The notes beneath the pieces are model-generated. The model made no database searches. It was not told the DNA's origin and saw only the letters and a list, made by a program, of their open reading frames with translations. Source: Anaerolineae bacterium (GTDB lineage Bacteria; Chloroflexota; Anaerolineae; 4572-78; J111). From it: a stretch of DNA of 64,000 bases. Both the position numbers and the translations under genes were made by a program. Below, one piece after another: positions 31,110 to 53,083 of this stretch (position 1 is its first letter; every line of letters begins with the position of its first letter). Location: NCBI GenBank assembly GCA_016931895.1, contig JAFGDY010000248.1:1-64000 (forward strand), in the 5' to 3' direction.

Positions 31110-31946
31110 CTAACCCACTCTCCGGCGGAAAGCCTGCTGCAATTTTTGGGTGATGGGGCCGGGTTGGCCATCACCTACGGGCCAATCGTTCACCCGAACT
31201 ACCGGCATTATTTCAGACGTGGTGCCCAGGAGCATCATTTCTTCGGCGGAAGGCAAATCCTTTTCCAGAAGAGGAAATTCTTTAACCGGAATGTTCAGGT
31301 TGGCGCACAGGCTTAAAACAACTTCTCTGGTGATGCCGCCCAGGATGTAATGACTTTTGGGATAAGTGACCAATTGCCCGTTGCGCACGGCGGCAAAGTT
31401 GGTGTGGGTGCCTTCGGTCAGCGCGCCGTCGCGCACAAAAACGGCTTCTGCTGCGTCGCTCTCCTGGGCCTGTTGGCTGGCCAGCACGTTGGGCAGCAGG
31501 GAAACCGATTTAATATCGCAGCGCGTCCAGCGCAGGTCGGGCGTAAGGATAATTTTGATGCCCTGCTCCATTTTTTCGCGGGGTGGGTTGAAAGGAGTAG
31601 CCGTGGCATAAACCGTTGGCGAAACATGGCTGCCGGGGAAGGTGTGCCGGCGGGGAGCTGCGCCGCGCGTTACCTGGATGTAGACCAGGGCGTCGCTATC
31701 TCCAAGTTGGTTGTGATGAAGTAACTGCTGGGCGACTTCTCTGAAAATCTCCGGGTCCGGTCCACCTATTTGTAACTCGCGCAGGCTGCGGGCCAGGCGT
31801 TGCAGGTGCGGGTCTGTTTGGAACAGGCGGCCCTGGTAGGCGCGGATCACCTCGTAAACGCCGTCGGCAAATAGAAAGCCGCGGTCATCGGGAGAGATCT
31901 TTGCTTCTTGTTTGGGGAGATATTGGCCGTTGAAATAAACTATCAT
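31110..31946 (-). CDS. Class IV aminotransferase, D-amino acid transaminase-like
   Basis: 278 residues. PLP enzyme of fold type IV; the Schiff-base Lys is in RCDIKSVSLLPNVLA, and SPDDRGFLFADGVYEVIRAY and EGTHTNFAAVRNG are family hallmarks. The D-alanine aminotransferase pattern (RCDIKS) suggests it makes D-Glu or D-Ala for peptidoglycan; a branched-chain role is less likely. Its ATG overlaps the stop of the deoxynucleoside kinase by 4 bases (ATGA), so they form an operon. Confidence 0.87.
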   Translation of the reverse strand: MIVYFNGQYLPKQEAKISPDDRGFLFADGVYEVIRAYQGRLFQTDPHLQRLARSLRELQIGGPDPEIFREVAQQLLHHNQLGDSDALVYIQVTRGAAPRRHTFPGSHVSPTVYATATPFNPPREKMEQGIKIILTPDLRWTRCDIKSVSLLPNVLASQQAQESDAAEAVFVRDGALTEGTHTNFAAVRNGQLVTYPKSHYILGGITREVVLSLCANLNIPVKEFPLLEKDLPSAEEMMLLGTTSEIMPVVRVNDWPVGDGQPGPITQKLQQAFRRRVG

Positions 31947-32605
31947 TTTGCCTCATCATTGTTGTTTGACGGAAAAACAACATCCTCTTTCCCCGCCAAT
32001 TTATCCTGAATCCGTTGCATAACAATGTCCAGGTGTTTGGTTTGGTTGACAAAATCCAGGTCGTCGGTGTGGATGGTGAGCACCGGGCAGAGGTCAAAGA
32101 TATCTATCCACTCCTTGTAAAATGTTTCCAGCAGCGATAGATACTCAAAGGTGATGCCGCTTTCAATGACCCGACCCCGCTGGTGGATGCGGTTGAGCAG
32201 CACCGGCACGGGCGCGGTAAGATAAAGCAGCAGGTCGGGCCGGGGCAGGCCGGTTATGATCAGGTTAAAAACATTCCGATAAGCCTGGTAGTCCCGCTCA
32301 TTCAAGTTGCCCAGATGATGGAGCGCGCGGGCAAAGATGTAGGCGTCTTCGTAGATGCTGCGGTCGGCGATGGCGGATTTGGGGCTGTGGGCCAGGTCAA
32401 GATGCTGCTGCGCCCGGTGGCCCAAAAAGAAAACTTGCAAGTGGAAGGACCACTGGCGCATATCGGCGTAAAAGTCGGCCAGGTAGGGGTTGTCGGCCAC
32501 GGATTCAAAACTGGTTTGCCAATCCAATCGGGCGCCCAACCGTTCGGTGAGGGAAGTTTTGCCGCTGCCAATATTGCCGGCCACCAGAATGAGGCGTTTA
32601 GTCAT
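31943..32605 (-). CDS. Deoxynucleoside kinase
   Basis: 220 residues, AGGAAAA before the ATG. P-loop VAGNIGSGKTSL, the DRSIYED motif and a lid Arg pair (RIHQRGR) identify the dCK/dGK/TK2-type family, which phosphorylates deoxynucleosides for salvage. Substrate specificity is not obvious. First gene of a two-gene operon with the class IV aminotransferase, which is functionally unrelated at first sight. Confidence 0.88.
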   Translation of the reverse strand: MTKRLILVAGNIGSGKTSLTERLGARLDWQTSFESVADNPYLADFYADMRQWSFHLQVFFLGHRAQQHLDLAHSPKSAIADRSIYEDAYIFARALHHLGNLNERDYQAYRNVFNLIITGLPRPDLLLYLTAPVPVLLNRIHQRGRVIESGITFEYLSLLETFYKEWIDIFDLCPVLTIHTDDLDFVNQTKHLDIVMQRIQDKLAGKEDVVFPSNNNDEAK

Positions 32606-32783
32606 TATTTTTTCCTGTGGTCAAGGTAAATGATTTTCTCATTGTAACACAACAACCGGCTTAATCACAAGAATGATGGATTTGGTCATTCAGCGGGTGC
32701 AGCGGAATGAAGAGTAGTGGCGAGGGTTGCCCGGCCGCTTGGAGATTCGCTGCCGGTCGTCTGATGCCCAAAATTAGGGGCAC

Positions 32784-33779
32784 TCACTTTTGGCGATGTT
32801 GCAATAAGTGGTTGGCGGCGGCGAAGCCAAGCACCAGCAAAACCAGGGTGCCAAAGGCCACCGCCCCCCCCGAAATGTTCTGAGGCAGGGTGGCCCCGGC
32901 ATCCGGCAATTGGCTCTGGCCCGTGATCGGCATATCTGAGGGAGGCGTGCCGGTAGGCGTGGGGGTGAGGGTGGGCAATTTCCGGCGGGTGGGGGTTAAG
33001 CTGGGGGTGGGCGTGGCCGTAGGCGGAACATAGGGGCCAACCATGGAAATATCGTCAAGGTTAAAGTTCAGTTCAGTGCCGGTGGGTTCCAGTTTCATGC
33101 CCCGGATGAAGAGGGTCAGTTTGGTGGCATTGCCGGTAAAAATGGTGTAGACAAAACGTTGGTAATATAAATGGTTGGCGTCGCTGGCGGGGCCGCCGGA
33201 GCCAACGCGGAGTTGTTCATCCACGGCCATTGCCGTCCAATTTTGTACAAAATAATATTTACCCCGCCCCTGGTAATCAAGACCCCAACTCATGGTATAT
33301 TCGTCCTGATTGCGGTCCGCTTCCGGCGCGTCGGAACGCATCAGGGCGTGGATGGTCAACACGTAGTTCATGTTGGGCACCACTTCTACCGTTTGGTAAA
33401 TGGCAATGATGCGCTCCGGCAGATAGGTGTCTACCTGGGCGATTTCCATTAATTGGGCGTGTTTGCCGCTATGAACCGCTTCGGCCCATTCCTCATCGTA
33501 CCAGCCAAAGTGGGCGCCGCCGTTGTTGTAAGGATACCAGTAGGCCGCCACTGCGTTGCCCTGCACATTGTTGCCGGTGTAACGATCCTCAAAATCGCCG
33601 TTTTTGATGGCGTTGGTGAGGCGATAGGTTTCAGGCCCTCCCTGGGGCAATGGGGCAGGGTCGGTTTGGTTGTTGAAGTTGGCGGCGGTAAAGCCTGAAA
33701 TAATAAAGGCGGCCAAAACAAAACTGGCTAAAACAACGGCCGCAATGGATTTGTTTGTTTTGAGCGCCGGTGTCATCAT
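32784..33779 (-). CDS. Secreted protein with CBM-like domain and LPxxG-type anchor
   Basis: 331 residues from the ATG at 33779 with AGGAGG 7 bases upstream. Signal peptide (KSIAAVVLASFVLAAFIISGFTAA), then a beta-rich domain (about 45-250: IKNGDFEDRY, LNFNLDDISMVGPY) of the type found in carbohydrate-binding and galactose-binding modules. A Thr/Pro repeat (PTPSLTPT) forms a stalk, then LPDAG, a hydrophobic segment and a basic end, an anchor layout. Ligand unknown. The proximal hydrophobic tail resembles those of the 5'-nucleotidase and the first gene. Confidence 0.7.
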   Translation of the reverse strand: MMTPALKTNKSIAAVVLASFVLAAFIISGFTAANFNNQTDPAPLPQGGPETYRLTNAIKNGDFEDRYTGNNVQGNAVAAYWYPYNNGGAHFGWYDEEWAEAVHSGKHAQLMEIAQVDTYLPERIIAIYQTVEVVPNMNYVLTIHALMRSDAPEADRNQDEYTMSWGLDYQGRGKYYFVQNWTAMAVDEQLRVGSGGPASDANHLYYQRFVYTIFTGNATKLTLFIRGMKLEPTGTELNFNLDDISMVGPYVPPTATPTPSLTPTRRKLPTLTPTPTGTPPSDMPITGQSQLPDAGATLPQNISGGAVAFGTLVLLVLGFAAANHLLQHRQK

Positions 33780-33856
33780 CAAACAGCCTCCTGGCAGGCG
33801 GTAATTAGACATAACAAGAAGTTATAGTTTTATGATAACATAACTATGGGGATTTT

Positions 33857-34627
33857 TCAATACGTGTAGTAAGTTTCGGCAGGGTTGCGCTGAAGCACGC
33901 TGTCAATAAACTGCCGCATCCGTTGGTAGTGGACCCCTTTCCAGTAGACCCGGTTGCAGGTGGGACAGTGGCAGAACTCATGATAACGCTGCCTGGTTTT
34001 GGGGAGTAAGCGGTGGCTGATGTTTGCTTTGGCCACCGGCTGTAGCAGGCCGTTGCAGTGCAAGCAGCGTTGAAACGGTTTGACCGACCGGTACAGGTCA
34101 AAACGGCGCAGCACCTCTATTAATTGTTGGCGGGGGTTGGTGGCCCGCAGGCAGTAGCCGTGGGTAACAATGCTGCGTTTGAGCAGGCCCCGGTCGCGGG
34201 TTAAGAGAATGCGGCCGTTGCTGCTGGAAATGCGGGCCAGTTCGTCGTCGTTGTAATCATTGCGGTACAGCGTATCAAAACCGAACATACGCAGGTAGGC
34301 GGCCAGCCGCCCCAGGTGAACGTCAAGCACAAAGCGGGTCTCGCGCAGGGGTTCGGGCCGGAGCCGTACCAGGGGGGTGATGTCCAGCGACTCGAAAACG
34401 GGATAAACGCTGATCCGGTCGCCATCCTGCACCGGGTAGGAAAAGTCAACAGAGCGGCCGTTGACCAGGATGAGGTCAATCTCGGTATGCGGCACGCCCA
34501 GCGCCTCGATCATGTCTTTAACCGAGGCCCTGAGCACAAAGGAATGGCTGAAGAACCGTTGTTTTTTGGCCGGGGGCAGGAAGTCATTTAATTCGGCGTA
34601 AAAACGGAAATAAGCCTGTTTTGTCAA
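33857..34627 (-). CDS. Mut7-C RNase with N-terminal ubiquitin/ThiS-like domain
   Basis: 256 residues. Residues about 5-85 form a ThiS/MoaD-like beta-grasp domain (ILVNGRSVDFSYPVQDGDRISVYPVFE). Residues about 95-250 are a Mut7-C PIN-type domain: RFVLDVHLGRLAAYLRMFGFDTLY, then LLTRDRGLLKR, and a zinc ribbon with C-x2-C pairs (CLHCNG and CHCPTCNRVYW). The combination is known as Mut7-C-ubiquitin proteins; an RNA-degrading role is expected but unproven. Last of a three-gene run with the zinc-ribbon and MBL genes. Confidence 0.85.
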   Translation of the reverse strand: MTKQAYFRFYAELNDFLPPAKKQRFFSHSFVLRASVKDMIEALGVPHTEIDLILVNGRSVDFSYPVQDGDRISVYPVFESLDITPLVRLRPEPLRETRFVLDVHLGRLAAYLRMFGFDTLYRNDYNDDELARISSSNGRILLTRDRGLLKRSIVTHGYCLRATNPRQQLIEVLRRFDLYRSVKPFQRCLHCNGLLQPVAKANISHRLLPKTRQRYHEFCHCPTCNRVYWKGVHYQRMRQFIDSVLQRNPAETYYTY

Positions 34628-34639
34628 TTTGTTTTGGGC

Positions 34640-35728
34640 CTAACGCGCCGGTTCGGTATCCATGACGGCGTTAAAGGTATTCACTTTCAATATCCACCGG
34701 CTGCCGAGATCGTACCGTTGGAACTCGGTTTCGCTGCTGGTGGTGTAGGTGTATTGTCCCTGTTCGGTATTGAAAATGATTTTGTATTGTTCCACCCGCT
34801 CTCCCGGCCGTTGATTTCTGCTCAAAACCGGCTCGGCGGGCCATTGGGGATTGCGGTTATTGCCGCCAAGCGAGACCTCGTCAACCTTTTGCCATTCATC
34901 TACGGTGTATTTGCACCACTCCTCATACACCTCGTACTCACAATCCTGCACTACCTCGGCATAGCCGCTGCCTTTGTCTACGCTGTAGGGTGTGCCGCAG
35001 ACTTCTTTGGCGTTGGGCGCGGGATTATCCTGGGTGTGATGCACTTTTTGGGTGCAAACGCCCACAATGGCCTCTGCCGGGATGCTGTCACGCCAATCTG
35101 CATGTTCAACCGGCTGTAAGGCTTCAATGGCAATGGTGCGAGTCCACGAGACATCTTGCACCGTGCCGTTGATGTCGCTGGTGCGGGCGGACAGAATAAA
35201 AAACACAATGGCGGCGAGACAGCAAAGTAAGGCCACTCCCCCGGCGATAACGGCCCATAACCTGTTTTGCGGGCGGCGCAGGGGTTTGGCCGGCACTGCC
35301 CTGGCTTCAGGTTCGGGTCTGGTCAACGGGGCGCCACATTGGGCGCACTTGGGCGCGTTGGCCTCGTTCTCCGCGCCGCAGGCCGAACAGGTGATTTTTG
35401 GCGCCGGGCCGGTGCGGCGCGCGCCTAAAATGCGGCCTTTATCTCTGGCCTTACCCTCGCGCAGGTCGGCCCCACACTGGCTGCAAGTGGCGGCCCCGGC
35501 CGGGTTGCGCGACCCGCAGTAGTAGCAATGAATATCGGGGCCGGCTTTGGCTTTGGCAATTTCAGCTTCGTTTTTGATAATCTCTTCCTGCGCGGCCTGC
35601 TCAAATTGCACGTCGTCGGGCTGGGGCATGCCACAACTGGTACAAGTTTTCTGCGGCCCGGGATTCCTGGTTTGGCAATTGGGGCAGGTCCATTCGGTGC
35701 GGACATAGCCTACTGTTTTTTTGACCAT
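34640..35728 (-). CDS. Membrane protein with three N-terminal zinc ribbons
   Basis: 362 residues. Zinc ribbons at about 13-35 (CPNCQTRNPGPQKTCTSCG), 66-90 (CYYCGSRNPAGAATCSQCG) and 113-135 (CSACGAENEANAPKCAQCG), the first RanBP2-like. A single TM helix (about 158-180) follows. The remaining 180 residues are extracytoplasmic with several Cys, beta-rich, and unlike anything I recognise. It may bind nucleic acid or protein inside and sense or stabilise something outside. The Mut7-C gene begins 12 bases past its stop, so the two are coupled. Confidence 0.75.
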   Translation of the reverse strand: MVKKTVGYVRTEWTCPNCQTRNPGPQKTCTSCGMPQPDDVQFEQAAQEEIIKNEAEIAKAKAGPDIHCYYCGSRNPAGAATCSQCGADLREGKARDKGRILGARRTGPAPKITCSACGAENEANAPKCAQCGAPLTRPEPEARAVPAKPLRRPQNRLWAVIAGGVALLCCLAAIVFFILSARTSDINGTVQDVSWTRTIAIEALQPVEHADWRDSIPAEAIVGVCTQKVHHTQDNPAPNAKEVCGTPYSVDKGSGYAEVVQDCEYEVYEEWCKYTVDEWQKVDEVSLGGNNRNPQWPAEPVLSRNQRPGERVEQYKIIFNTEQGQYTYTTSSETEFQRYDLGSRWILKVNTFNAVMDTEPAR

Positions 35729-35760
35729 GGGGTCTTCCCTTTCTGATTAGAGTATTTCTC

Positions 35761-36543
35761 TCATTGATCAGCTTCATTCAGTTGAACTTTGGTGCCGTCT
35801 TCGGCCACGGTGAGTTTGCCGGGGTAACGATCTTTAAAGGCTTGGATAATTCGGGCCGGTGTTTCGTCAAATTCTGGCCCAATATGGCTAATGAGCACGT
35901 GAGGCACTTTGGCCGTAGCCGCAAAGTCGGCCACGGTTTCGGGTTGGTGATGGGCCAGTTCGTGGATCAGCAGGTCGCAACCGTTCATAAAGGGGCTGAG
36001 TTCTTCCGGCGAGCCTAGATCGCCGCTGTAAACAATGCGCCAGCCCGGGCCGTTGATCACCATACCCAGGGCAACCGCCTTACGCCCAAAGTTGGTTTTG
36101 TAGGCGGTGCTTTCCAGGTGTTGGGTTTTGAAGAAGGTAACTCGAAGGAGGGCTTCTTTGATGCGTTTGCCGGATTTAACGTTGGTGATATTGAGTTCGT
36201 AGGCCAGCCCTTCGAATGATTGAAAGGAGTCGGCCAACAACCGCCTGATTTTGCCGCGCGTGCCGCGCGGCCCGTAGATATTGAGCGGGCCGGGCCGTTT
36301 AAGCAGATGATTTTGGGTTAAAAAAAGACCCAGGCCGGCAATGTGGTCCATGTGCCAGTGGCTCAGGAACACGGCCTGCACGTCGGCCGGGTCCAGGTTG
36401 TAACGATATAACAGAGTGCTCACCGGCGCGCCGCAGTCAAGTAAAAAGAGCTTGCCCGCCGCAGTCAAAGCGTAGGCCGGGGCAAAACGCCGCCGGGTGG
36501 GCTGCCCCGATGAAGAACCGATTACCAAAAATTCATCAGACAT
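35761..36543 (-). CDS. MBL-fold hydrolase, RNase Z-like
   Basis: 260 residues from the ATG at 36543 with GGAG 9 bases upstream. SHWHMDHIAGLGLFL gives the HxHxDH metal site; SGDLGSPEELSPF and LISHIGPEF supply further ligands. The N-terminal LVIGSSSGQPTRRRFAPAYAL resembles RNase Z/ElaC-type and related phosphodiesterases, but the flexible exosite arm is absent or altered, so tRNA processing is unproven. It precedes the zinc-ribbon and Mut7-C genes on the same strand. Confidence 0.8.
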   Translation of the reverse strand: MSDEFLVIGSSSGQPTRRRFAPAYALTAAGKLFLLDCGAPVSTLLYRYNLDPADVQAVFLSHWHMDHIAGLGLFLTQNHLLKRPGPLNIYGPRGTRGKIRRLLADSFQSFEGLAYELNITNVKSGKRIKEALLRVTFFKTQHLESTAYKTNFGRKAVALGMVINGPGWRIVYSGDLGSPEELSPFMNGCDLLIHELAHHQPETVADFAATAKVPHVLISHIGPEFDETPARIIQAFKDRYPGKLTVAEDGTKVQLNEADQ

Positions 36544-36598
36544 AGCGATTGTCTCCATTGACAACTAAATTGTTTGGTACAACAACGATTGACCTTGT

Positions 36599-36618
36599 TC
36601 CCAAACTCGGTTTGGGGA
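36599..36618. repeat. AAACT-GTTTGG palindrome, single copy
   Basis: TCCCAAACTCGGTTTGGGGA lies between the mltG stop and the MBL gene start. It is the same unit as at 11271 and 17076. Confidence 0.5.
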
Positions 36619-36636
36619 CAAAATAAGGCTTTTGGT

Positions 36637-37806
36637 TCACTGCCCCCCGCCACAGGCGGCAACGTTAATTTGGTGTTCTTCATAGGTCACGGCAAACAGG
36701 TGCGCTCCTTCACCGCCGCAGCCCATAAAGAAAAGGTAATCTGTTTGTTCGGGCTGGAGCGTGGCCATAATGGAAGAGGCGGCAGGGTTGGCAATGGGGC
36801 CGGGCGGCAGGCCGGGATTCAGGTAGGTGTTGTAGGGCGAATTGACCTGGGAATACTCTTCCAGGGTAACGGGCGTTTTCCACCACTGGCCTGTGTCGGT
36901 TTGATACCCCATGGCGTACTGCACCGTGGGGTCGGCTTGCAAATACATGCCCTGGGCCAGGCGATTGAGGTAAACGCTGGCAATGGTTGGCCGTTCTTCC
37001 GGGACCACGGCTTCACGTTCAACAATGGAGGCAATGATCAAAATATCGCGGAAGGAATAACCCTGCGCCGCAGCCAGGTCCAGGACGTTGGCCGGAAGTT
37101 TGCCGGCCATGTTGTCGAGCATGCGGATGATCAAATCTTCGGGCGTGCCGTTGGCCGGGATGCGGTAAGTATCGGGGAAAAGATACCCTTCGTAGGAGGC
37201 CCCGGGCGGCAGGTCGGCCAGCAGGGGGTGATCAAGGCCGGTGCCCTGGCGCACAAAGGCCAGGAAAACTGGGCCATCCATGATCCCTTCCTGGGTCAGC
37301 ATGTCGGCAATTTGCTCGGCGCGCCAGCCGGGCAGAACAGAGACGGTCACTTCTTCAAAGTTGGCTTTTTGTAGCGTTTCCGCAATCTCGCGGAAGTTCA
37401 TGTTCCGCCGCAAGATATAGTCGCCAGCTTCCAGCCTGGCGTCCAGGCCGTTGTAGCGTAAGAAGAGACGGAACAGGTCGGCGTCGGTAATAAGGTCTTG
37501 CTCTATCAATTTGTTAGAGATGGAGAAGGCGGTTTCGCCCAGGTCAACGGTAAAGGGCACAGGAGAGGGATCGTTGGAGACGGGCGTATTGATGGTTTCC
37601 GCCTGGGTTTGCAGGTACAGGCCCAGGAAAAATTCTTCAATATTTTGCGGCGAGTGGGCCATCGAGGCATCGCCCACCGAAATGGACGCCGCCGTTTCCT
37701 CGGCCTGCTGGGTAAAGGCCCAGTAACCGGCACCCAAAATAACCACAATGGCGCCAATGGCAATCACAAAAACAATAAACCGAACAATGGCTCTGATGAC
37801 AACCAT
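36637..37806 (-). CDS. mltG: Endolytic murein transglycosylase MltG-like
   Basis: 389 residues from the ATG at 37806. One N-terminal TM helix, then a LysM-like region (VPFTVDLGETAFSISNKLIEQDLI) and the YceG catalytic domain: IIASIVEREAVVPEERPTIASVYLNRL, with the catalytic Glu in IVERE, and SPYNTYLNPGLPPGPIANP. MltG cleaves nascent glycan strands in the membrane and sets their length. It starts 10 bases after the stop of the LysM/M23-like gene, so the two are coupled. Confidence 0.92.
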   Translation of the reverse strand: MVVIRAIVRFIVFVIAIGAIVVILGAGYWAFTQQAEETAASISVGDASMAHSPQNIEEFFLGLYLQTQAETINTPVSNDPSPVPFTVDLGETAFSISNKLIEQDLITDADLFRLFLRYNGLDARLEAGDYILRRNMNFREIAETLQKANFEEVTVSVLPGWRAEQIADMLTQEGIMDGPVFLAFVRQGTGLDHPLLADLPPGASYEGYLFPDTYRIPANGTPEDLIIRMLDNMAGKLPANVLDLAAAQGYSFRDILIIASIVEREAVVPEERPTIASVYLNRLAQGMYLQADPTVQYAMGYQTDTGQWWKTPVTLEEYSQVNSPYNTYLNPGLPPGPIANPAASSIMATLQPEQTDYLFFMGCGGEGAHLFAVTYEEHQINVAACGGGQ

Positions 37807-37816
37807 ACTTGTTCTT

Positions 37817-39394
37817 TCACTCCGTGCGTACAATTAAGTTCCGGTCGGCATCCCAACACTGGCACGCCTCGCGGACGTCAACCCCATTAGTAATGAAACC
37901 CTCGTAAGGAATGAGGTTGGGCTGTACCTGCCAGCCCGACAGGACGAGGGGCACGGGGCTGCCCGCGTCCATCCACTCGCCGTTGTAGCGGCGGGCAAAG
38001 TGGACGTGGCTGGAATTGGACGGCCCCCCTTCGCAAGAGGCGTAGCCAATCACGTCTCCCTCGCTTACATGTTGCCCTACTTGCACCGGCGTGTCAACAT
38101 CCAGGGCCAGGTGTAGATACAACAGCACCCAGCCGGTTTGCAGATAGCCGTCGCCGTCCAGGTCAAGTTGAACTTCGCCCTGACGCGCAATCACAATTAC
38201 GCCATCCGCTGCTGCCGTATTGGGCGCGCGAGAGTAAAAACAATTGCCCAACACATCGGGCGGGCCAAAGTCAATGGCGGCCCAGGCGCTGCCGTCGGCG
38301 TAGGCGGGGTGAGGCGCGCCGCTAAAGTAGAACCCTTCGCCGGGAGACCAGGGCAGGCTGAGGGGCGGCTGGGTGAGCGTAATGGGCACTACCGGCTCCA
38401 CGGCATAGGCAAATGGGTCGCCAAAGAGCGCCCGATAAGTGGCCGCAAAACCATCTGGCCCCAGTTCCTGCGGCCAAGTTTCCCCATCCGAGTGAATGGC
38501 CAGGATGTTTTGCACGCCCACGGTGCCGGCATTGACCCCCTGGGGGGTAATGGCCCGGTTGCGGTCGGCCAATTGGAACACCCAAAAGCCGTCGCGTTTG
38601 TAGCCGTAATAACCGGCGTTAACGCGATTGGCCGTAAAGCTCAAAGCCTGGTAAAGACTGCCCCCCTTGGGATTGCGCGGCCCCAACGGCAGGCGCAACT
38701 GTTCTGCTGAAGGTTGCAGGTTAGTAACCCAACTGCCGTAATGCTCCAGCAGAGCCAGCAGCAGGCGGGGGCCAACGCTGAATTGCTGGGCCACGCGCTC
38801 AACCACCTGGGGGCCGGTCAACTCCTGGCCGTCTACATTTTCATAGTAAGTGGCCAGATAACCGCCCTGGCTGTTGGCAAATTCGGTTATATTAAAACCA
38901 ACGTAACCGGGGCCGTACACCACCTCACTATCGGGCAGTAGCGGCGTGGCCGGGGCAATGGTTTTGATCTGCAACGGGATGCGCAACAATTGGCCCGTTT
39001 GGATGAGCGCCGTTGGCGCGGCCAGGTGATTCATCGCCACCAGTTCTTCAACGGTGGTATTATACAGCAGGGCGATGTAGCTTAAGGTTTGACCCTCGGC
39101 AATGGTGTGGTAAGCATAAGGTGGGCCGTCTGGCACGGGAATGGGCATTGGTTCAAGGGTTGGCGTGGGCGGGGGCGCAGGTTTAGCCAAAACCGGGGCC
39201 TGCGCCGCGGTATCTTTCGGGCTGATTGTAGCGGCAGCCGCAACCACTTGGGGAGTGGAATCCGGAACAGGGGTTTCCTTTTCCTGGATGGGGATCGCTC
39301 CCCCCTCCCCCTGGAAAATAGGGCCACAGCCCGCGCTAAAAAAAAGCAATCCGCCCGCCATGCAGGCCGTTAGCTTAAAGGATATGGGATTCAT
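37817..39394 (-). CDS. LysM lipoprotein with degenerate M23-type domain
   Basis: 525 residues. Signal peptide with lipobox SAGC, a Pro/Thr linker, and a LysM domain at about 95-140 (YHTIAEGQTLSYIALLYNTTVEELVAMNHL). The middle (about 160-350) is of unknown type. The C-terminus is M23/lysostaphin-like: HVHFARR supplies the final HxH, but the usual first ligand HxGxD reads WAAID, so its His is missing. It may be an EnvC/NlpD-like activator without peptidase activity. It precedes mltG, consistent with a peptidoglycan role. Confidence 0.8.
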   Translation of the reverse strand: MNPISFKLTACMAGGLLFFSAGCGPIFQGEGGAIPIQEKETPVPDSTPQVVAAAATISPKDTAAQAPVLAKPAPPPTPTLEPMPIPVPDGPPYAYHTIAEGQTLSYIALLYNTTVEELVAMNHLAAPTALIQTGQLLRIPLQIKTIAPATPLLPDSEVVYGPGYVGFNITEFANSQGGYLATYYENVDGQELTGPQVVERVAQQFSVGPRLLLALLEHYGSWVTNLQPSAEQLRLPLGPRNPKGGSLYQALSFTANRVNAGYYGYKRDGFWVFQLADRNRAITPQGVNAGTVGVQNILAIHSDGETWPQELGPDGFAATYRALFGDPFAYAVEPVVPITLTQPPLSLPWSPGEGFYFSGAPHPAYADGSAWAAIDFGPPDVLGNCFYSRAPNTAAADGVIVIARQGEVQLDLDGDGYLQTGWVLLYLHLALDVDTPVQVGQHVSEGDVIGYASCEGGPSNSSHVHFARRYNGEWMDAGSPVPLVLSGWQVQPNLIPYEGFITNGVDVREACQCWDADRNLIVRTE

Positions 39395-44460: not shown

Positions 44461-45552
44461 TTATGTGTGGGGCAGGCCGGCCAAGCTTTTTTTCAAAGCT
44501 CTTTCAAACCACTCTACCAGCCTTGTTTTTTCCGGTTCGGGTAAAAAGGCGGCTCTGGCCGCGTTCATAATCATCTCGGCCAAACAGCGAAAAGGCACGC
44601 CAATACCGCGATTGGCCACCAGGAACTCATCGGTGAGGGTGGTATTTGAAATGGAGGGATCATCGGTATTGATGGTTACCGGAATGCCCAGTTGATAAAA
44701 AGCGTACAAAGGATGCATGCTCAATTTGGGAATGATGCCGGTTTGCAGATTACTGGTGGGGCACATTTCCAGGACCATTTTGCGTTGTTTCAGCAAATCC
44801 ACAATGGTCACATCTTCCCTGGAGCGCACGCCGTGGCCAATTCTTTCGGCATCCAGTTTTTCAATGGCTTCTCTGACGTGATGCGGCGGACCGGCTTCGG
44901 CGGCGTGGGCCGTGATGTGTAGCCCCTGCTTTTTGGCCCAATCAAACACTTCAATAAAGTCGGTGAGGGGGTAATTTGTTTCGTCTCCGGCAATGTCTAC
45001 CGCCACAATGCCCCTATCCTGCTTGTCGGCGGCTATTTCGGCCAGTTGACGGGCGTATTGTGGCTCGTGCCGGCCCATCTGCACAATCAAACGCACTTGA
45101 ATAGGGTACTCGGCTTGAGCCTGATTGGCGGCCAGGATGACCCAATCGGTTACTTCTTCAAAACTGAACCCCTGGTTAAGGGCCAGGGCCGCCGGATTAA
45201 AACGCAGTTCAAGGTAACGAATGTTGTCTTCGGCGGCATCGGCAATGGCTTCATAGGCTACCCGGATAACGGCCTCCCGGCTGGAATAGAATCTACGCAA
45301 GAGTTTAAATTTGGCCAGAAAACCAACAAAATCAGGCGGATCGTCAATCACCTGCACGTAAGGGCGTAACTCCTCCAAACTCCAGCTAGGTAAGTCTACC
45401 CCGTGCTGATGAGCAATCTCAGACAGGGTAGATAAACGTAAGCTGCCTTCAAGATGGCGATGTAAATCAATCTTGGGCAGGTTAAAAAAAATGCTGCGGA
45501 GATCGCGGAGTTTGAGATTGTTTTTTTCTTGAAAGGAACTTGTTTGGGTCAT
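44461..45552 (-). CDS. add: Adenosine deaminase
   Basis: 363 residues. Zinc TIM-barrel enzyme that converts adenosine to inosine for purine salvage. Motifs: LPKIDLHRHLEGSL, HAAEAGPPHHVREAI, HGVRSREDVTIV, MCPTSNLQTG and INTDDPSI, covering all zinc and catalytic residues. It stands apart from the histidine kinase upstream (26-base gap) but could be the last gene of that operon. Confidence 0.92.
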   Translation of the reverse strand: MTQTSSFQEKNNLKLRDLRSIFFNLPKIDLHRHLEGSLRLSTLSEIAHQHGVDLPSWSLEELRPYVQVIDDPPDFVGFLAKFKLLRRFYSSREAVIRVAYEAIADAAEDNIRYLELRFNPAALALNQGFSFEEVTDWVILAANQAQAEYPIQVRLIVQMGRHEPQYARQLAEIAADKQDRGIVAVDIAGDETNYPLTDFIEVFDWAKKQGLHITAHAAEAGPPHHVREAIEKLDAERIGHGVRSREDVTIVDLLKQRKMVLEMCPTSNLQTGIIPKLSMHPLYAFYQLGIPVTINTDDPSISNTTLTDEFLVANRGIGVPFRCLAEMIMNAARAAFLPEPEKTRLVEWFERALKKSLAGLPHT

Positions 45553-45578: not shown

Positions 45579-47744
45579 CTATTGATCAATGGGGAGCCAA
45601 AACGAAAAAGTGCTGCCCTGATTAACCTTGCTTTGCACAGTTATTTCCCCCCCATGCGCTTCCACAATTTGTTTGACAATGGTTAAACCTAACCCGGCTC
45701 CACCATAGGCCGAGGACGAATCCGCCACCTGGTAAAATCGCTCAAAAATCTTGTCCAATTGATTGGCCGGTATGCCTTTGCCGTAATCTTGCACCGAAAA
45801 CTTGATTCTGTCTCCATCTTGCCTGGCCGTAATGTTGATTTTTTCTCCACCCGGGCTAAATTTTAGCGCATTGCCTACTAAATTATCAAATACCTGCCCA
45901 ATTCTATCAACATCTACCCGTACCGGGGGTAAATCCGGCGCGCTATCGAGTACAATTTTTATGTTATACTCGGCTGCGCCGGCAATAGCGCCGGCGGTGG
46001 CGCGGACAATTAAGGTATGGGTGGCTATAGACTCAAACCTTAGATTGCCTGATTCTAACCTTTGTAAAGAGACCAGGTCTTCCACCAGGCGGATAACGGC
46101 GTTTGTTTTGTGAGAAATGATTTCTAATTTTTCCCTGACTGCCGGCGGAATTTGGCCCAGGCTATTCTCCAAAATCAAGGCGATGTAGGCTTTAATAAAA
46201 GTCAGGGGGGTGCGCAACTCGTGCGAAACGTTTTCTACAAACTCTGACCTTAAATGATTAGTGGCGGCCACTTCATTCAAAGCAGCCTCAAGTTCCGTGG
46301 CCCGCTGTTCCAGATTATCGTAAAGCCGGGCATTTTCAATGGCGGTTGATATTTGGGCCGCGGCAATGGTCAATAAACGTCCTTCAGCCTGGCCAAAGGC
46401 ATTGATTTTTTGGTCGTTAATGACTAATGCGCCCAATAATTCTTCTTTGACCAGCAGGGGCATGATCATTACTGAACCTAAGGGCGGCTGTTTTGAGACC
46501 TCCTGGTTATTAAAAGTTTGTTTTGGTTCAGCCAGATTGACATTTTGCAGATAGATGGGGCTAGGTTTGGCGATGAGTTTATTGGCCAATTGCGTAATAT
46601 AATTTATTTTAGCGTCATTTTGTTTTGTCTTTAGCCAGCCGCTACATAATTTAAGCGCCAATGTTTCGGCCTGCTCTGTTTTTTGCTTTAAAAAAAGGCA
46701 ACAACTGCTGCAATCCAAAGCGTGCTTTAAAATCGTTACGCTTGACTCGATCACCCGGTCCAATTCTAATACCTTGGTCAGTTGATCGGCCAGGGTATAG
46801 AGGGTGGAGACCTCGGCCAGGCGTTGGTTTGTTTCCTGGAATAAGCGGGCATGGTGGATAGCCACGGCCGCCTGGCTGGCAAAAGCCGAGAGTAAAGCGA
46901 CATCATCTTCGGTAAACGCTACGCCGTCCGATTTGTGGGTAGCTTCTAAAACGCCAATGGCTTCGCCCTTAACAATGAGCGGGGTGGAGATCAGGTTGGC
47001 AATCAGGTGCGAGTCGGGGCTGACATATAAAAACCGATCATCTTTGGTTACGTCATTAATGCAGAGCGGTTGCCGGTGTTTCAAAACCCACCCCACCGTG
47101 CCTTTTTCAAAGTTAAAGGCCGGGGTGGGCACATGGGCCATATCGGGGCTGCTGTGGGTGGCGGTGGGGTTGAGTTTTTGGGTCTGATAGTCGGCCAGGT
47201 AAACTACCGTATGGTTGGATTTTAGCAACACGCTCACCCTTTGCACAATGGTATTGAGGATATTTTGTAAATCAAGGGTATTGAGGGCGCGGCTGGCCTC
47301 CAGCAAACCTTCCAGGGCTTCAATTTTGGAGGAACTTTCTGGTTGAACAATATTTTTTTGAGCGGGCGCTGCGGGCAAGGGGCGGATGAAGCCAATATAA
47401 TGGCTTTGGGTATTTTCTGCCGTTGTGAGGTACAGAATCAATTCAACCCCTCCCCCCTCGTGATCCTTTGGCCCGGATTGGCGCAAGAAGGCAGTTGCCA
47501 AAATGGTTTGTATGGAACCCGCAGCCAATTGCCGTAATAGCGAATCCAAATTTTTTTGGTCTGTATCGCCAAAAATGTTCAGGAAAGGAGTATTTTCCAG
47601 GATATCGGGGGCAATAGTGGACAATTCGGCCAGGGCAGGAAAGGGTGGAGAAAATTTGAATTGCTCATCCAGAAAAAATTGCCGCCAGCCTGAGTGAATA
47701 AGAAATTCAATAACCTCTTTAGTAAAAACGGCTGGGGTCATCAT
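45579..47744 (-). CDS. Soluble GAF-GAF sensor histidine kinase
   Basis: 721 residues, ATGATG start. The first 130 residues are PAS-like or unknown. GAF domains at about 145-305 and 310-475, then a short coiled coil, HisKA with His508 in SEFVENVSHELRTPLT, and an HATPase_c domain with N box DNLVGNALKFSPGG, DYGKGI and GGAGLGLTI. No TM helix, so it senses cytosolic signals or docks on the two small membrane proteins encoded before it (the gap to the nearer one is 3 bases). No response regulator is nearby. Last gene of the wHTH-KaiC-membrane run. Confidence 0.9.
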   Translation of the reverse strand: MMTPAVFTKEVIEFLIHSGWRQFFLDEQFKFSPPFPALAELSTIAPDILENTPFLNIFGDTDQKNLDSLLRQLAAGSIQTILATAFLRQSGPKDHEGGGVELILYLTTAENTQSHYIGFIRPLPAAPAQKNIVQPESSSKIEALEGLLEASRALNTLDLQNILNTIVQRVSVLLKSNHTVVYLADYQTQKLNPTATHSSPDMAHVPTPAFNFEKGTVGWVLKHRQPLCINDVTKDDRFLYVSPDSHLIANLISTPLIVKGEAIGVLEATHKSDGVAFTEDDVALLSAFASQAAVAIHHARLFQETNQRLAEVSTLYTLADQLTKVLELDRVIESSVTILKHALDCSSCCLFLKQKTEQAETLALKLCSGWLKTKQNDAKINYITQLANKLIAKPSPIYLQNVNLAEPKQTFNNQEVSKQPPLGSVMIMPLLVKEELLGALVINDQKINAFGQAEGRLLTIAAAQISTAIENARLYDNLEQRATELEAALNEVAATNHLRSEFVENVSHELRTPLTFIKAYIALILENSLGQIPPAVREKLEIISHKTNAVIRLVEDLVSLQRLESGNLRFESIATHTLIVRATAGAIAGAAEYNIKIVLDSAPDLPPVRVDVDRIGQVFDNLVGNALKFSPGGEKINITARQDGDRIKFSVQDYGKGIPANQLDKIFERFYQVADSSSAYGGAGLGLTIVKQIVEAHGGEITVQSKVNQGSTFSFWLPIDQ

Positions 47745-47747
47745 CGC

Positions 47748-48071
47748 CTATTCGTTGAGTTCTGTAATCAGCCAACTCCAATAACGCCAGGTAACATAAA
47801 GGCTTATAGTCACACTAATGGCTAATGGAAGATGATAAGCCCCTAACAGGAACCACGAGTTAGAAAACCAGGGGGGTATATTTGAGATCAGGTTTGTGCC
47901 CAAAATAAGATGGACGGCTGCGCTAATGAGGGCCAGGCCAATGGCCAGGTAATAATAACGATACAGGGGGAGCATTTTTACCACAGAGCCGAATCTTTCC
48001 GAAAGTTTGGCTAAAATATAAAAAACAACAATTAGCGACAAAGTTCCCAAAGTGCCTAATGATGATGTCAT
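47748..48071 (-). CDS. Three-TM small membrane protein B of the KaiC cluster
   Basis: 107 residues with hydrophobic segments at about 6-24, 42-60 and 72-94; basic loops face the cytosol. No recognised family. GGAG is immediately before the ATG, too close to act alone, so translation is likely coupled to the preceding gene, whose stop is 6 bases away. Its conserved place between KaiC-like and histidine-kinase genes suggests that it links the kinase to the membrane. Confidence 0.7.
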   Translation of the reverse strand: MTSSLGTLGTLSLIVVFYILAKLSERFGSVVKMLPLYRYYYLAIGLALISAAVHLILGTNLISNIPPWFSNSWFLLGAYHLPLAISVTISLYVTWRYWSWLITELNE

Positions 48072-48077
48072 CTCCGG

Positions 48078-48392
48078 TTAAGCGCGTCCCCCCATCATTA
48101 ACTTAAATAGCAGCAGTCCAAATATTATCACCATCACTCCTCCCGCAAAACGGGCTAGATCTCCCCAAAAATTACCGGTAATGGCCGGGGCTAAAGGTGC
48201 GTAAAAATAGGCAGCAACGGCAAACAGCACAATGGAAACCAGAAAAGCAGGATAGTAAGCCCGCTGTCCTGACTTTTTCTCATAAAATTGGGCAATAAAG
48301 AACAAAAAAAGCAAGAGCGCGCCCGCCGCCCCCCAGGTGTAAATAGTTATCCAAAAGCTGATGAGGTTGATAGAACTCTCCAATTCGGGCAT
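48078..48392 (-). CDS. Three-TM small membrane protein A of the KaiC cluster
   Basis: 104 residues with hydrophobic segments at about 13-34, 48-66 and 78-98. No recognised family. It starts 19 bases past the stop of the KaiC-like gene without a clear Shine-Dalgarno site. Similar in size and layout to its downstream neighbour but not obviously a duplicate. Confidence 0.7.
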   Translation of the reverse strand: MPELESSINLISFWITIYTWGAAGALLLFLFFIAQFYEKKSGQRAYYPAFLVSIVLFAVAAYFYAPLAPAITGNFWGDLARFAGGVMVIIFGLLLFKLMMGGRA

Positions 48393-48411
48393 GAGTGTTT
48401 GAGAAAACGGT

Positions 48412-49170
48412 TTAGCGTTTTACAAAAGCTTCAACAAAAGAATCGGCCATGCGGCGAGGGCTGCCGCTTAAAATGCCCTCCCGTCCTTCAAACTTGGATT
48501 GTACTTCGATGCCGGTAGAAGTAATGTCGTACTGCCGGATATCTTTGGCATGGTCGCTGCCGCGCATCTTTAAAACTAGCAGAGCCTTGTGGATAGCCGA
48601 TTCTATTTCCACATACCGCAGAATAGTATAAGAGTCAACCACAAAGCTGAGGTGGGTCTCTTCTTTGGATTCGCCTAAAAGCACCGGGCTTTCTCGGGTC
48701 AGCACGCTGGTCAGGTCCTGTCGTTTGAGGGCGTTGATAAAGGCAAATTCAAGGCTGCGTAATTCAACCGACTCGCGTGACAGGCGGGCAAAATGGGTCA
48801 TGCTATCTACCACTACCCGGCGCGCGCCCATTTCATTAACGGAGTTTTCAATCATGCCGCCTACGCTCTCAATGTCCAGGCGGCTCACTTCGGGGCTGGT
48901 CATAATGATCTTAAGCAGCCCCTTTTTTTCCAGGTCCATAAAATCCCAGCCAAAGGCGGCCGCGTCGTGATAATATTGCTGGGGAAATTCTTCAAACGTA
49001 ATGATCAAACCAGGCTCGTTGGCTTTGACAATGCCGTTGTAAATAAATTGCATGCCCAGGCAAGTTTTGCCGGTGCCGGGCGCGCCTTCGACAAGATTGG
49101 CGGTTTCTCTGATAAAACCACCGCCTAACATTTCGTCCAGGCCCTTGATACCTGTTTTTACCCTATCCAT
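48412..49170 (-). CDS. Single-domain KaiC/RadA-like signalling ATPase
   Basis: 252 residues from the ATG at 49170 with AGGAG 6 bases upstream. RecA-superfamily domain: Walker A EGAPGTGKTCLGMQF, paired acidic catalytic residues in ITFEEFPQQ, Walker B RRVVVDSMTHFARL. GGGFIRE near the start is typical of KaiC homologues. Unlike clock KaiC it has only one domain and no CII phosphosites. Such proteins act as signalling hubs, especially in archaea. It sits between a wHTH regulator gene and two membrane-protein genes followed by a histidine kinase. Confidence 0.85.
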   Translation of the reverse strand: MDRVKTGIKGLDEMLGGGFIRETANLVEGAPGTGKTCLGMQFIYNGIVKANEPGLIITFEEFPQQYYHDAAAFGWDFMDLEKKGLLKIIMTSPEVSRLDIESVGGMIENSVNEMGARRVVVDSMTHFARLSRESVELRSLEFAFINALKRQDLTSVLTRESPVLLGESKEETHLSFVVDSYTILRYVEIESAIHKALLVLKMRGSDHAKDIRQYDITSTGIEVQSKFEGREGILSGSPRRMADSFVEAFVKR

Positions 49171-49223
49171 TGGTGCTCCTAACATTGTGAAGTAAAGGTG
49201 CTCCTGAAGACTTCTTTTTAACC

Positions 49224-49601
49224 CTACCGCATGCCCCGAATGATGTGGTAAACCGCTTTGACCCGAAAATGTCTGTCCTCACAAGCCAAGATAAACTTAT
49301 CAACCAGGGCGCGCATGGTTTCATCGGTTGAAAGCGAATAAATGGGGGTATCATGCAACACTTTCTTTTGCATAATCCCACTTTCAACCAAATCTTCTAA
49401 CTCTGGCCTGACCGCCTCTGTATTTCTGCCGGCGTATTTGGCAATGTTTTCTACCGTGTCGGCAGTGTGAGGGTTTTCGTAGAAGAATCTTACCAGGTCC
49501 CACTTGATAAATGAATTTACCTTTTTCTTGACAAAGTCAAGTAAAGTGGGATCCATATCATCCATCAATCGAGTTGTGAAGTCATCGTTGTTCGCAGTCA
49601 A
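49224..49601 (-). CDS. Winged-helix protein upstream of KaiC-like gene
   Basis: 125 residues starting at a TTG at 49601 with AAAGGAGGG 7 bases upstream. A winged HTH is likely at about 30-95 (FIKWDLVRFFYENPHTADTVENIAKYAGRNTEAVRPELEDLVESGIMQKKV), followed by a helical end. It could bind DNA in its own promoter or act as an adaptor of the KaiC-like ATPase 53 bases downstream. First gene of the five-gene run. Confidence 0.75.
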   Translation of the reverse strand: MTANNDDFTTRLMDDMDPTLLDFVKKKVNSFIKWDLVRFFYENPHTADTVENIAKYAGRNTEAVRPELEDLVESGIMQKKVLHDTPIYSLSTDETMRALVDKFILACEDRHFRVKAVYHIIRGMR

Positions 49602-49850
49602 AGTTATGCCCTCCTTTGACTAGAAAATTTACGGGATAAGTCCTCCCCACCCGGCAAACTACTACAGGGTAGTCGGATAGAATAAGAATTTTAAATGTTG
49701 GAGTTATTTTGTACTACTTACTGCTGGCCGGTCATACCTCACCGTTAATAAATGGCAAAAGCATTACCGTTCTCTATCTTAGCATCATCACTCAGAAAAT
49801 GCAACAGTATTTATGAATTGTGAGCGGGTATCGGCTCAGGGCAAGGGGGC

Positions 49851-52800
49851 TTAATGCCGGCGCGCTCTGGCCTGTCTCTTTTTTCTGTTGGCGCCGGCAA
49901 CGGCTGAACCGGCCCGGGCCGGTTCTTTTGCGCCGCTTTGACCGTTACCGCCGGCCAGATCCGATTTCATGTGACAGTGTTTGTACTTTTTGCCGCTGCC
50001 ACACCAGCACGGCTCGTTTCGGCCCGGTGTTTTTTGCACGCGCACGGGCGCGGGCGTTTGCCGAACCGCGCCCGGCGTTTCGGCCTGCATGCGGCTGGCG
50101 GCCATTGCGTCCGGGTGTTGGGCCTGCAACTGCTGCGGCCGGGGGGCTTCCACTTGAACGGCCGGGTGATAAATGCGGCGCACCACTTCTTCTTGAATGG
50201 CGGCCCGTAACTGGCCAAACATTTCGTAGGCGTCTCGTTGAAACGCCACCAACGGGTCTTGTTGGCCAAAAGCACGCAGACCAATGCCCTGGCGCAACTC
50301 ATCGAGCGCGGTCAGGTGCCGCACCCACAAGGTGCTGACAATCTGGAGCATTAATCCCTTTTCGGCCCGCCGCAGTTCTTCCGGCCCTAGCACCTTCTCC
50401 ATTTGCTCGTAATTTTTGTCGGCCAGTTCCAGGATTTGGGTTTCAATTTCCTCCGGCGACAGGTTGGCCCAGGCGTTGGTAGTGAGGGTGGGCGGCAAAG
50501 GCATAATGGTGCGCACCGCGTTATATAAAGCGGTCAGATCCCACTCCTCCGGGTCTTCGCCAGCGGTGAAGTTTTGCACCAGCCCGCTCAGATGCGCCTC
50601 AACCATGGTTTGAATGTTCTCTTTGAGGCTGGCGCTGCTGAGAATGCGGCGCCGCTCGGCATAGATTACTTCGCGTTGTTGGTTGATAACATCGTCGTAT
50701 TTGAGCAGGTGTTTGCGGATATCAAAGTTATGACCTTCAACTTTGGTTTGGGCATTTTCAATGGATTTGCTGACAATGCCGGCCTCGATGGGGATGTTGT
50801 CGTCTACGCCAAACCGTTCCATCAAATTGGCCACGTTTTGGCCGCCAAAACGCCGCATTAAATCGTCTTGCAGGGAAACAAAAAAGCGACTGGAACCGGG
50901 GTCGCCCTGCCGGCCGGCCCGCCCGCGTAACTGGTTGTCAATGCGGCGGGCTTCGTGACGCTCCGTGCCCACCACGTGCAGGCCGCCCAATGATTTCACT
51001 TTTTGTTTGTCTTCGGCCACAATGTCCGTCCATTTGGCCAGGGTTTTTTCCCATAGCTCCGCATCAACCTCGGTCAAATCCACGCCGCGTTTACGCAGTT
51101 CGTCGCGGGCCAGGCCCTCTGCGTTTCCGCCAAGCAAAATGTCCACGCCGCGCCCGGCCATGTTGGTGGCAATGGTCACCGAGCCAGGCCGCCCGGCCTG
51201 GGCAATGATGTTGGCTTCGCGCTCGTGCTGTTTGGCGTTGAGCACTTCGTGTTTAGCCCCCTGCCTTTGCAATAAATTGGACAGGTATTCCGAGGTTTCA
51301 ATGGCAATGGTGCCTACCAGCACCGGCTGGCCGGCTTCTTGCAGGGTTTTGATTTCTTCCACAATGGCTTTGAATTTGGCCTGGGGGCTTTTGTAAATCA
51401 CGTCGGGATAGTCCACCCGTTTGTAATAAAGCTGGCCGTTGTCCGGGCTGTGGTAGGTGGTAACGGCCACGCCGTTCTCTTTATGGGTTTCTTCAATGAG
51501 ATCGCCCTGCATGGCCCGGTATTCCACGTTGGTCGGCAGCACGCTCACTTCCAGGTTGTAGATGTTGCCAAATTCTTCGGCTTCGGTTTCGGCGGTACCG
51601 GTCATCCCGGCCAGTTTGTTGTACATTCTGAAGAAATTTTGGAAGGTGATGGTGGCCCAGGTAAAACTTTCGTGCCGCACGCTAACGCCTTCTTTGGCCT
51701 CAATGGCCTGGTGCAGACCCTCGCTGTAGCGCCGCCCGTGCATCAGTCGCCCGGTAAATTCGTCTACAATGATCACTTCGCCGTTTTGCACCACGTAGTC
51801 AACATCAAGTTTGAAGAGCACGTTGGCCCGGAGCGCGTTGTCTAGGTAGGGCGTCATGGCCGCGCTTTCGCCTTCGTACAAGTTTTCCACGCCCAGCACT
51901 CTTTCAATCTTTTCGATGCCCCGTTCGGTGAGGTAAACCACACGCGATTTTTCGTCAACCACGTAGTCGCCGTCCGGCTCCCGGTCTTCAGCTTCCACGC
52001 TTTCTTTACTGCTGGCTTTTAAGGGGCGCACGAGTTGGGCGAATTTCTGGTACAACTCGCTGCTTTCTTCGGCCTGGCCGGAGATGATCAGCGGCGTCCG
52101 GGCTTCGTCAATCAGGATGTTGTCCACCTCGTCAATGATGGCGTAGTGCAGCTCTTTTTGGGTGACCATGCTTAAATCAGGCACCATGTTGTCGCGCAGG
52201 TAGTCAAAGCCAAATTCGTTGTTAGTGCCGTAGGTGATGTCGCAGGCGTAAGCCTCGCGGCGGGTGATGGGTTCCAAATGTTGGTAACGGTCGTCCTCGT
52301 TGTGGTAGGCGGGATTATATTTAAACGAGGCTTTGTCAACGCCGCCGTGCCCGGCGCTTTCAATCACAGCCACGCTCAAACCCAGCAGGTGATAAACCGG
52401 CCCCATCCATTGACAGCCGAACTTGGCCAGGTAATCGTTTACCGTAATCAAGTGCGCCCCATGGCCAAGCAGGGCATTGAGCACCAGCGGCATGGTGGCC
52501 ACCAGGGTTTTGCCTTCGCCGGTGCGCATTTCCACCACCCGGCCCTGGTGCAGCAGCGCGCCGCCAACCACCTGCACGTCAAAATGGCGGTGAGCGATGG
52601 CGCGCCAACTGGCTTCGCGCACGGCGGCAAACACCTGGGCCTGAATCTCTTGCATCAATTGGTCTTCCCACTTGAGGAGACGTTTTTCGGCCTGCTCTAA
52701 TTGCACTTGCAGCCGCTGGCGTTCGCCGCGAACGGCCTCGGTGACTTGCTGGTGTAGATTTTTTACTTCAGCCCTCTGCTCGGCGGTGGCTTCGGCCAAT

Positions 52801-52958
52801 TGCCGGCGAAAGTCGGCCATCATCTGGCGCAGTTCGGCATCGCTCTTGCGCTTCATTTCCTGGCCAAGCGCATTAACTTCTTCAACCAGGGGGGTGAGTT
52901 TTTTGATCTCTTTTTGATGAGGGTCGCCAAAAATAGTTTTTACTACACTTTTAAACAT
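49851..52958 (-). CDS. secA: Preprotein translocase ATPase SecA
   Basis: 1035 residues from the ATG at 52958. SecA drives secretory proteins through SecYEG. Walker A MRTGEGKTLV (about 144-153), DEVD box IIDEVDNILIDEART, the helicase motifs QLRGRAGRQGDPGSSRFF and a C-terminal SEC-C zinc finger (CWCGSGKKYKHCH) are intact. Compared with E. coli SecA the region before Walker A (about 55-110) carries a coiled-coil-like insertion rich in Gln/Arg/Glu. The tail is basic. The minus-strand start region is 125 bases from the glycosyltransferase stop. Confidence 0.97.
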   Translation of the reverse strand: MFKSVVKTIFGDPHQKEIKKLTPLVEEVNALGQEMKRKSDAELRQMMADFRRQLAEATAEQRAEVKNLHQQVTEAVRGERQRLQVQLEQAEKRLLKWEDQLMQEIQAQVFAAVREASWRAIAHRHFDVQVVGGALLHQGRVVEMRTGEGKTLVATMPLVLNALLGHGAHLITVNDYLAKFGCQWMGPVYHLLGLSVAVIESAGHGGVDKASFKYNPAYHNEDDRYQHLEPITRREAYACDITYGTNNEFGFDYLRDNMVPDLSMVTQKELHYAIIDEVDNILIDEARTPLIISGQAEESSELYQKFAQLVRPLKASSKESVEAEDREPDGDYVVDEKSRVVYLTERGIEKIERVLGVENLYEGESAAMTPYLDNALRANVLFKLDVDYVVQNGEVIIVDEFTGRLMHGRRYSEGLHQAIEAKEGVSVRHESFTWATITFQNFFRMYNKLAGMTGTAETEAEEFGNIYNLEVSVLPTNVEYRAMQGDLIEETHKENGVAVTTYHSPDNGQLYYKRVDYPDVIYKSPQAKFKAIVEEIKTLQEAGQPVLVGTIAIETSEYLSNLLQRQGAKHEVLNAKQHEREANIIAQAGRPGSVTIATNMAGRGVDILLGGNAEGLARDELRKRGVDLTEVDAELWEKTLAKWTDIVAEDKQKVKSLGGLHVVGTERHEARRIDNQLRGRAGRQGDPGSSRFFVSLQDDLMRRFGGQNVANLMERFGVDDNIPIEAGIVSKSIENAQTKVEGHNFDIRKHLLKYDDVINQQREVIYAERRRILSSASLKENIQTMVEAHLSGLVQNFTAGEDPEEWDLTALYNAVRTIMPLPPTLTTNAWANLSPEEIETQILELADKNYEQMEKVLGPEELRRAEKGLMLQIVSTLWVRHLTALDELRQGIGLRAFGQQDPLVAFQRDAYEMFGQLRAAIQEEVVRRIYHPAVQVEAPRPQQLQAQHPDAMAASRMQAETPGAVRQTPAPVRVQKTPGRNEPCWCGSGKKYKHCHMKSDLAGGNGQSGAKEPARAGSAVAGANRKKRQARARRH

Positions 52959-53083
52959 AACCGCTTCAGCTCCTATCCGTCCTTTCCTTTCAAGACATAA
53001 TGCAGGGTAAATTGTACCACAATCGGCGGCGCAGCCCAAGAATACAAATTGTATATTTGCTGATTTCTTAAAAAGGGGTTAAT

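Follow-up and report, generated by a model that had tools for sequence, protein, structure and literature searches.

What would a KaiC-like ATPase do in a bacterial operon in which it is encoded between a winged helix-turn-helix (wHTH) protein and two small membrane proteins? The question is raised by a locus of an Anaerolineae bacterium (phylum Chloroflexota), for which we analyzed positions 1 to 64,000 of the forward strand of contig JAFGDY010000248.1 (assembly GCA_016931895.1; this whole stretch is called the window, and coordinates refer to it unless another locus is named). KaiC-like ATPases are widespread outside the cyanobacteria, and their roles there are mostly obscure. We found that the genes of this module are kept together in about a quarter of Anaerolineae, and the gene set points to an undescribed switch that links gene control to the cell membrane and to ATP. 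We propose that the block is a membrane-coupled transcription switch in which the membrane pair would control the wHTH protein, KaiC would act as an ATP-dependent switch between them, and a GAF histidine kinase would be an optional input, a reading to which we assign a probability of roughly 0.45.

A conserved gene module in Anaerolineae

A model that had read only the DNA letters (its reading is here called the original prediction) described five genes running in one direction with gaps of 3 to 53 bases, and we confirmed all of these open reading frames (ORFs) on the minus strand. In the order of transcription, they encode the wHTH protein (125 amino acids [aa]; 49224 to 49601), a single-domain KaiC-like ATPase (252 to 257 aa; 48412 to 49185 or to 49170), the three-transmembrane-helix (three-TM) membrane proteins MP1 (104 aa; 48078 to 48392) and MP2 (107 aa; 47748 to 48071), and a cytosolic histidine kinase (721 aa; 45579 to 47744). 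The successive gaps are 38 or 53, 19, 6, and 3 bp.

Within the GTDB family of this bacterium, MP1 and MP2 were side by side in 12 of 12 genomes, with the order wHTH-KaiC-MP1-MP2 in all of them. Across the class, MP2 occurred in 94 of 396 genomes from 24 family-level groups, one copy in each. Thermoflexus-like metagenome-assembled genomes are among the carriers of the block (L167 and L196). The KaiC orthologue was present in 76 of the 396, and the supposition that the small membrane genes are conserved beside KaiC was borne out: all 76 genomes also had MP2, the two genes being adjacent and on the same strand in 75 and split between contigs in the remaining one, and this KaiC was absent from all 302 genomes without MP2. 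MP2 was found without KaiC in 18 genomes, 15 of them in a single family (f21); in at least one of the other three (G101), a contig end cuts KaiC. The wHTH gene lay near MP2 in 85 of the 88 genomes holding both.

Variants were counted over 73 nonredundant loci with sufficient flanking DNA. The full set, wHTH-KaiC-MP1-MP2-kinase, was found in 37 loci, the same set without the kinase in 22, wHTH-MP1-MP2 without KaiC in 12, and MP1-MP2 only in 2. The order wHTH-KaiC-MP1-MP2 was thus kept in 59 of the 73 loci, far beyond chance. Because of these counts, we conclude that wHTH-MP1-MP2 is the stable core of the module and that KaiC is its usual partner and the kinase an optional one. A signaling module centered on KaiC, as originally envisaged, is still plausible, but KaiC is not universal, since 12 loci keep the core without it. 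Since the invariant unit is the wHTH protein plus the membrane pair, the wHTH protein probably serves as the main output and not just as the autoregulator that it had been taken for.

A phylum-wide search for MP2 gave 3 of 400 genomes, all of them Anaerolineae and none outside the class, and the wHTH relatives among the matches listed in a scan of GTDB contigs were all from Chloroflexota, mostly from Anaerolineae. Cytochrome oxidase was present in 56 of the 88 genomes with the module and in 214 of the other 288 (P = 0.06), which gives no clear link with aerobic life.

The histidine kinase is an optional partner

The kinase has an N-terminal region, two GAF domains, and HisKA and HATPase_c domains, the latter two both above the Pfam cutoff. 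(Residues 1 to 142, ahead of the GAF domains, had no Pfam match and were recognizable, at 46 to 49% identity, only in the three kinase-bearing relatives within the family.) In the 12-genome family, the kinase was found only in the window's genome and in G006, G001, and G002, so that 8 of the 11 other genomes are without it. Across the class, it was present in 37 to 40 of the 59 KaiC loci, a range that reflects three loci that were called kinase-less and are probably kinase positive, namely, L096 and L170, which reach contig ends, and L145, where the kinase is split (it appears to lie in overlapping pieces at 9041 to 12181 of that locus and is perhaps frameshifted or decaying). Over the core protein tree, there were about 11 changes of the kinase and two of KaiC. 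The kinase is dispensable.

These findings bear on the mechanism first put forward for the locus, in which the histidine kinase is the output, gated by KaiC together with the membrane proteins, while the wHTH protein only autoregulates the operon. In 37 of the 59 KaiC loci, the kinase comes directly after MP2, a few bases away, and it is never found in KaiC-less loci (0 of 14; Fisher P = 1e-5, a value that rests on about two KaiC losses). The locus kinases, which range from 572 to 1,738 aa with variable numbers of GAF domains, are moreover alignable and form their own recognizable family, distant from the other kinases of these genomes (the true outsiders in the kinase tree are L116, L111, and L036 only, the other sequences labeled as such including duplicate copies of the locus). 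However, a gated target that is missing from so many loci keeping the wHTH, KaiC, MP1, and MP2 genes, including most of the family, and that has been gained or lost so often, is hard to see as the purpose of the block, and no response regulator is conserved among the neighbors of the block, in agreement with the absence of a cognate regulator noted in the original prediction. We therefore regard the kinase as an unlikely output. With the kinase as an optional input, the lack of a response regulator would carry less weight.

A KaiC-like ATPase without the known phosphorylation sites

The KaiC ORF matches PF06745 (E = 2e-55), and its probable start is at 49170, the start used by most relatives. 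Its single domain is closer to the CII than to the CI domain of KaiC (191 versus 165 bits) and includes the C-terminal ILSGSPRRM stretch. Among 39 orthologues, the Walker A lysine, the catalytic E65, the Walker B D127 (Asp-Ser), and the trans-acting K206 and R208 (KMRGS) are invariant. The position corresponding to T432 is occupied by F in 37 orthologues and Y in 2, and that corresponding to S431 is occupied by A in 23, G in 7, S in 6, P in 2, and H in 1. As the ATPase residues are intact and the phosphosites are lost, KaiC should, judging from these residues, hydrolyze ATP but not go through a phosphorylation cycle at the sites known from KaiC; the residues are also compatible with hexamer formation. 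No match to KaiB (PF07689) was found in this genome, which is 97.4% complete.

Two more specific identities were rejected. A clock KaiC of the KaiABC type has two tandem domains, not one, and the score against circ_KaiC was 156 bits versus a cutoff of 546; for ArlH, the score was 45.7 bits versus the NF052589 cutoff of 215, and no archaellum genes lie alongside. Separately, more than half of the genomes with KaiC also carry a second KaiC-like paralogue (for example, at L207 to L210 and L214, and at L117 in the window's genome). In several genomes, this paralogue comes after a single-TM-like protein that has an FNPF-type motif, and in two it is beside an rsmI-like gene.

MP1 and MP2 are probably paralogues

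The description of MP1 and MP2 as unrecognized three-TM proteins held up. Neither belongs to a Pfam or NCBIfam family, scans of 44 to 45 members of each giving scattered weak matches only. MP1 has three TM helices by hydropathy. The AlphaFold (AF2) model of MP2 has three long helices (residues 2 to 31, 38 to 58, and 72 to 106; pLDDT, 93); a fold search of this model against the PDB gave nothing below an E value of 1. A conserved YWxW motif lies close to the MP2 C terminus. Because of their basic first loops and the positive-inside rule, both proteins are predicted to be N-out/C-in (for MP1, the hydropathy and charge pattern was taken over 44 homologues).

Profiles of MP1 and MP2 matched each other with 82 to 92% probability, collinearly from the first residue over TM1, the loop, and TM2, whereas reversed, locally shuffled, and unrelated membrane protein controls gave ≤6%, and one MP1 protein also scored with the MP2 model. 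In 49 of the 89 loci, the MP1 stop codon overlaps the MP2 start codon (by 4 or 1 bp), so that the two genes are often translationally coupled. MP1 and MP2 are probably paralogues that would form a heteromer.

The pair might be an effector instead of a sensor, forming a small channel or a membrane integrity or secretion-related complex, with the wHTH protein setting its amount and KaiC its activity. The persistence of MP1-MP2 without KaiC, and in a few loci (L108 and L113) without a recognized wHTH gene, would fit such a role, as would the position of the block behind secA in most loci. Yet the proteins are small, their TM helices have no conserved charged or catalytic residues, and we found no similarity to transporters, channels, or secretion components, so an effector role appears improbable to us.

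The wHTH protein and its likely partner

The wHTH gene has a TTG start codon after a clear, strong AAAGGAGGG Shine-Dalgarno sequence and is kept in 12 of 12 family genomes at 54 to 95% identity. The AF2 model of the protein is a winged-helix fold (pLDDT, 87.6). Its best PDB match, by both profile (E = 6e-4) and fold (E = 2.7e-4), is 3r0a, an uncharacterized Methanosarcina regulator, and the fold is also near those of MarR/ArsR proteins, the Foldseek matches of the model being 3r0a, CadC, CzrA, and MftR. Among curated sequence families, none scored above its cutoff, the best being DUF7342 (19.2 versus 31.6 bits).

The first core helix (SFIKWDLVRFF) and the C-terminal helix (DRxFRVKAxYHIIRG) are among the most conserved parts of the wHTH protein; the recognition helix is less conserved. 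When loci with and without KaiC were compared as groups, not corrected for the tree, the conserved wHTH positions were almost unchanged in the KaiC-less loci, with the exception of T46; in the same comparison, MP2 changed at R38 and P82, and the conserved positions of MP1 and MP2 were otherwise almost unchanged. No interface with KaiC could be read from the comparison for any of these three proteins. The persistence of wHTH conservation without KaiC suggests that the wHTH protein interacts with some other protein, for which the membrane pair is the simplest candidate. In addition, genome G013 carries a second wHTH-KaiC gene pair (L201, 5983 to 6351 and 6354 to 7070) with a paralogous KaiC and no membrane genes, which links the wHTH protein to KaiC independently of the membrane genes.

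A shorter wHTH paralogue of the same superfamily is present in many class genomes. In two genomes, a metallo-beta-lactamase-like ORF (ITWYGHACF...) comes next after it, at 7798 to 8130 and 8392 to 9024 of contig C268 of G000 (L116) and at 4476 to 5636 of L202. A GAF kinase is the divergent neighbor of this shorter paralogue in the window's genome.

Flanking genes and the question of frozen gene order

An adenosine deaminase (ADA) gene (363 aa; 44461 to 45552, minus strand) follows that of the kinase after 26 bp, in the same direction. We therefore consider the block to comprise six genes, of which ADA is the last; the original prediction had the other five and missed this one. ADA scored 310.6 bits against TIGR01430 (equivalog cutoff, 216.6), and its end is 3 bp from a convergent ammonium transporter-like ORF. 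It follows the block in nearly all family genomes in which the contig continues and lies ≤300 bp after MP2 in 28 of the 36 loci called kinase-less (3 of the 36 having a cut or split kinase). On the other side, most class loci have secA (49851 to 53039) immediately upstream of the block and pointing the same way; it may have a functional link with the block.

Since secA and ADA border the block across many families and each genome has a single copy of the locus, the entire stretch might simply be inherited synteny, its neighbors not acting together. Such freezing of gene order does not readily explain a co-occurrence that is complete and asymmetric (76 of 76 KaiC genomes with MP2 and 0 of 302 MP2-less genomes with KaiC), nor the gap of only 6 to 40 bp between the wHTH and MP1 genes in loci without KaiC, the frequent 4-bp overlaps, or the second wHTH-KaiC pair elsewhere in G013. 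Because genome-level co-occurrence is complete and the reading frames are coupled, we consider frozen synteny very improbable for the block, although it is still the most probable explanation in the case of secA and possibly of ADA.

Proposed mechanism

The module itself is solid, and from it we infer the following mechanism for the membrane-coupled switch. MP1 and MP2 would form a heteromer in the cytoplasmic membrane, with the short basic loops and tails on its cytosolic side, and would hold or release the wHTH regulator. The latter would be the output, controlling its own operon and further targets. KaiC, as a single-ring ATPase, would bind the MP1-MP2/wHTH assembly and set its state according to ATP or ADP, acting by conformational change and not by clock-type autophosphorylation. 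Where present, the GAF histidine kinase would feed in a cytosolic signal, probably through KaiC. ADA may couple the circuit to purine turnover or may be merely a cotranscribed neighbor. Only tentatively do we extend this to the full statement that the module, which is apparently confined to Anaerolineae, has a paralogous three-TM heteromer controlling the wHTH protein and a clock-less KaiC ring as the ATP-dependent coupler.

Several points weigh against the proposed switch. Synteny extends to secA and ADA in most loci, so that ancestral gene order accounts for part of the conservation. Beyond the promoter described below, we recognized no conserved wHTH operator. The dependence of the kinase on KaiC failed a tree-aware test, in which there were too few events for power. 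Finally, the physical contacts, the direction of signaling, the signal, and the regulon are all what we infer.

If the switch is real, KaiC would here be a membrane-to-gene energy gauge and not a timekeeper or a part of a motility machine. The locus offers a KaiC with a fixed set of partners over 24 family-level groups of one class, including two ever-present membrane families, and some of its natural variants lack KaiC or the kinase, which makes a clock-free role of KaiC directly testable by comparison.

Comparison with known systems

The cyanobacterial KaiABC clock has the output kinases SasA and CikA, of which CikA has a GAF domain. The Anaerolineae block resembles it in combining a CII-like ATPase with a histidine kinase but differs in having one KaiC domain instead of two, lost phosphosites, no KaiB in the genome, and membrane proteins. 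The phage shock protein (Psp) system, with PspB, PspC, PspA, and PspF, is an analogy of design only, in that two small membrane proteins are combined with an ATPase and a transcription regulator; no protein of the block matches any Psp family.

The nearest concept is that of the archaeal KaiC-like hubs: KaiC family ATPases have been proposed as central signaling nodes in archaea (Makarova, Galperin, and Koonin 2017, as cited in PMC5847659 and PMC13286277), and in Haloferax the KaiC-like CirA works with the transcription regulator CsmR (PMC13286277). As far as the proposal is conveyed in those citing papers, the present case differs in being bacterial and in forming a fixed operon with two probably paralogous three-TM proteins. 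ArlH is a KaiC-like archaellum protein, and archaella are found in some Anaerolineae (PMC12488501); it shares the single-domain KaiC fold and the bacterial class with the ATPase described here. The KaiC literature on Anaerolineae or Chloroflexi, as searched, held no description of this operon, and we file it as a new form of KaiC-linked signaling with two new membrane families.

Promoter and other features of the locus

A probable sigma-70-type promoter of the operon, TTGCAT-17 nt-(TGC)TAAGAT, lies at 49776 to 49804 on the minus strand. It is too weak relative to the consensus to have been listed by a simple consensus scan, and the evidence for it is conservation: the element recurs with equal spacing upstream of the wHTH gene in eight other family loci (L033 to L035, L037 to L039, L042, and L043), and loci of family f2 have it there in TTGATT-16-TAAAAT-like forms. 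Rfam gave no match over the locus, a defense library gave generic kinase and ADA domain matches only, and a search for fusions found no ORF joining two parts of the module. Elsewhere in the window, 29242 to 39394 is occupied by a mostly minus-strand run of genes that includes VWA domain, zinc ribbon, and LysM proteins.

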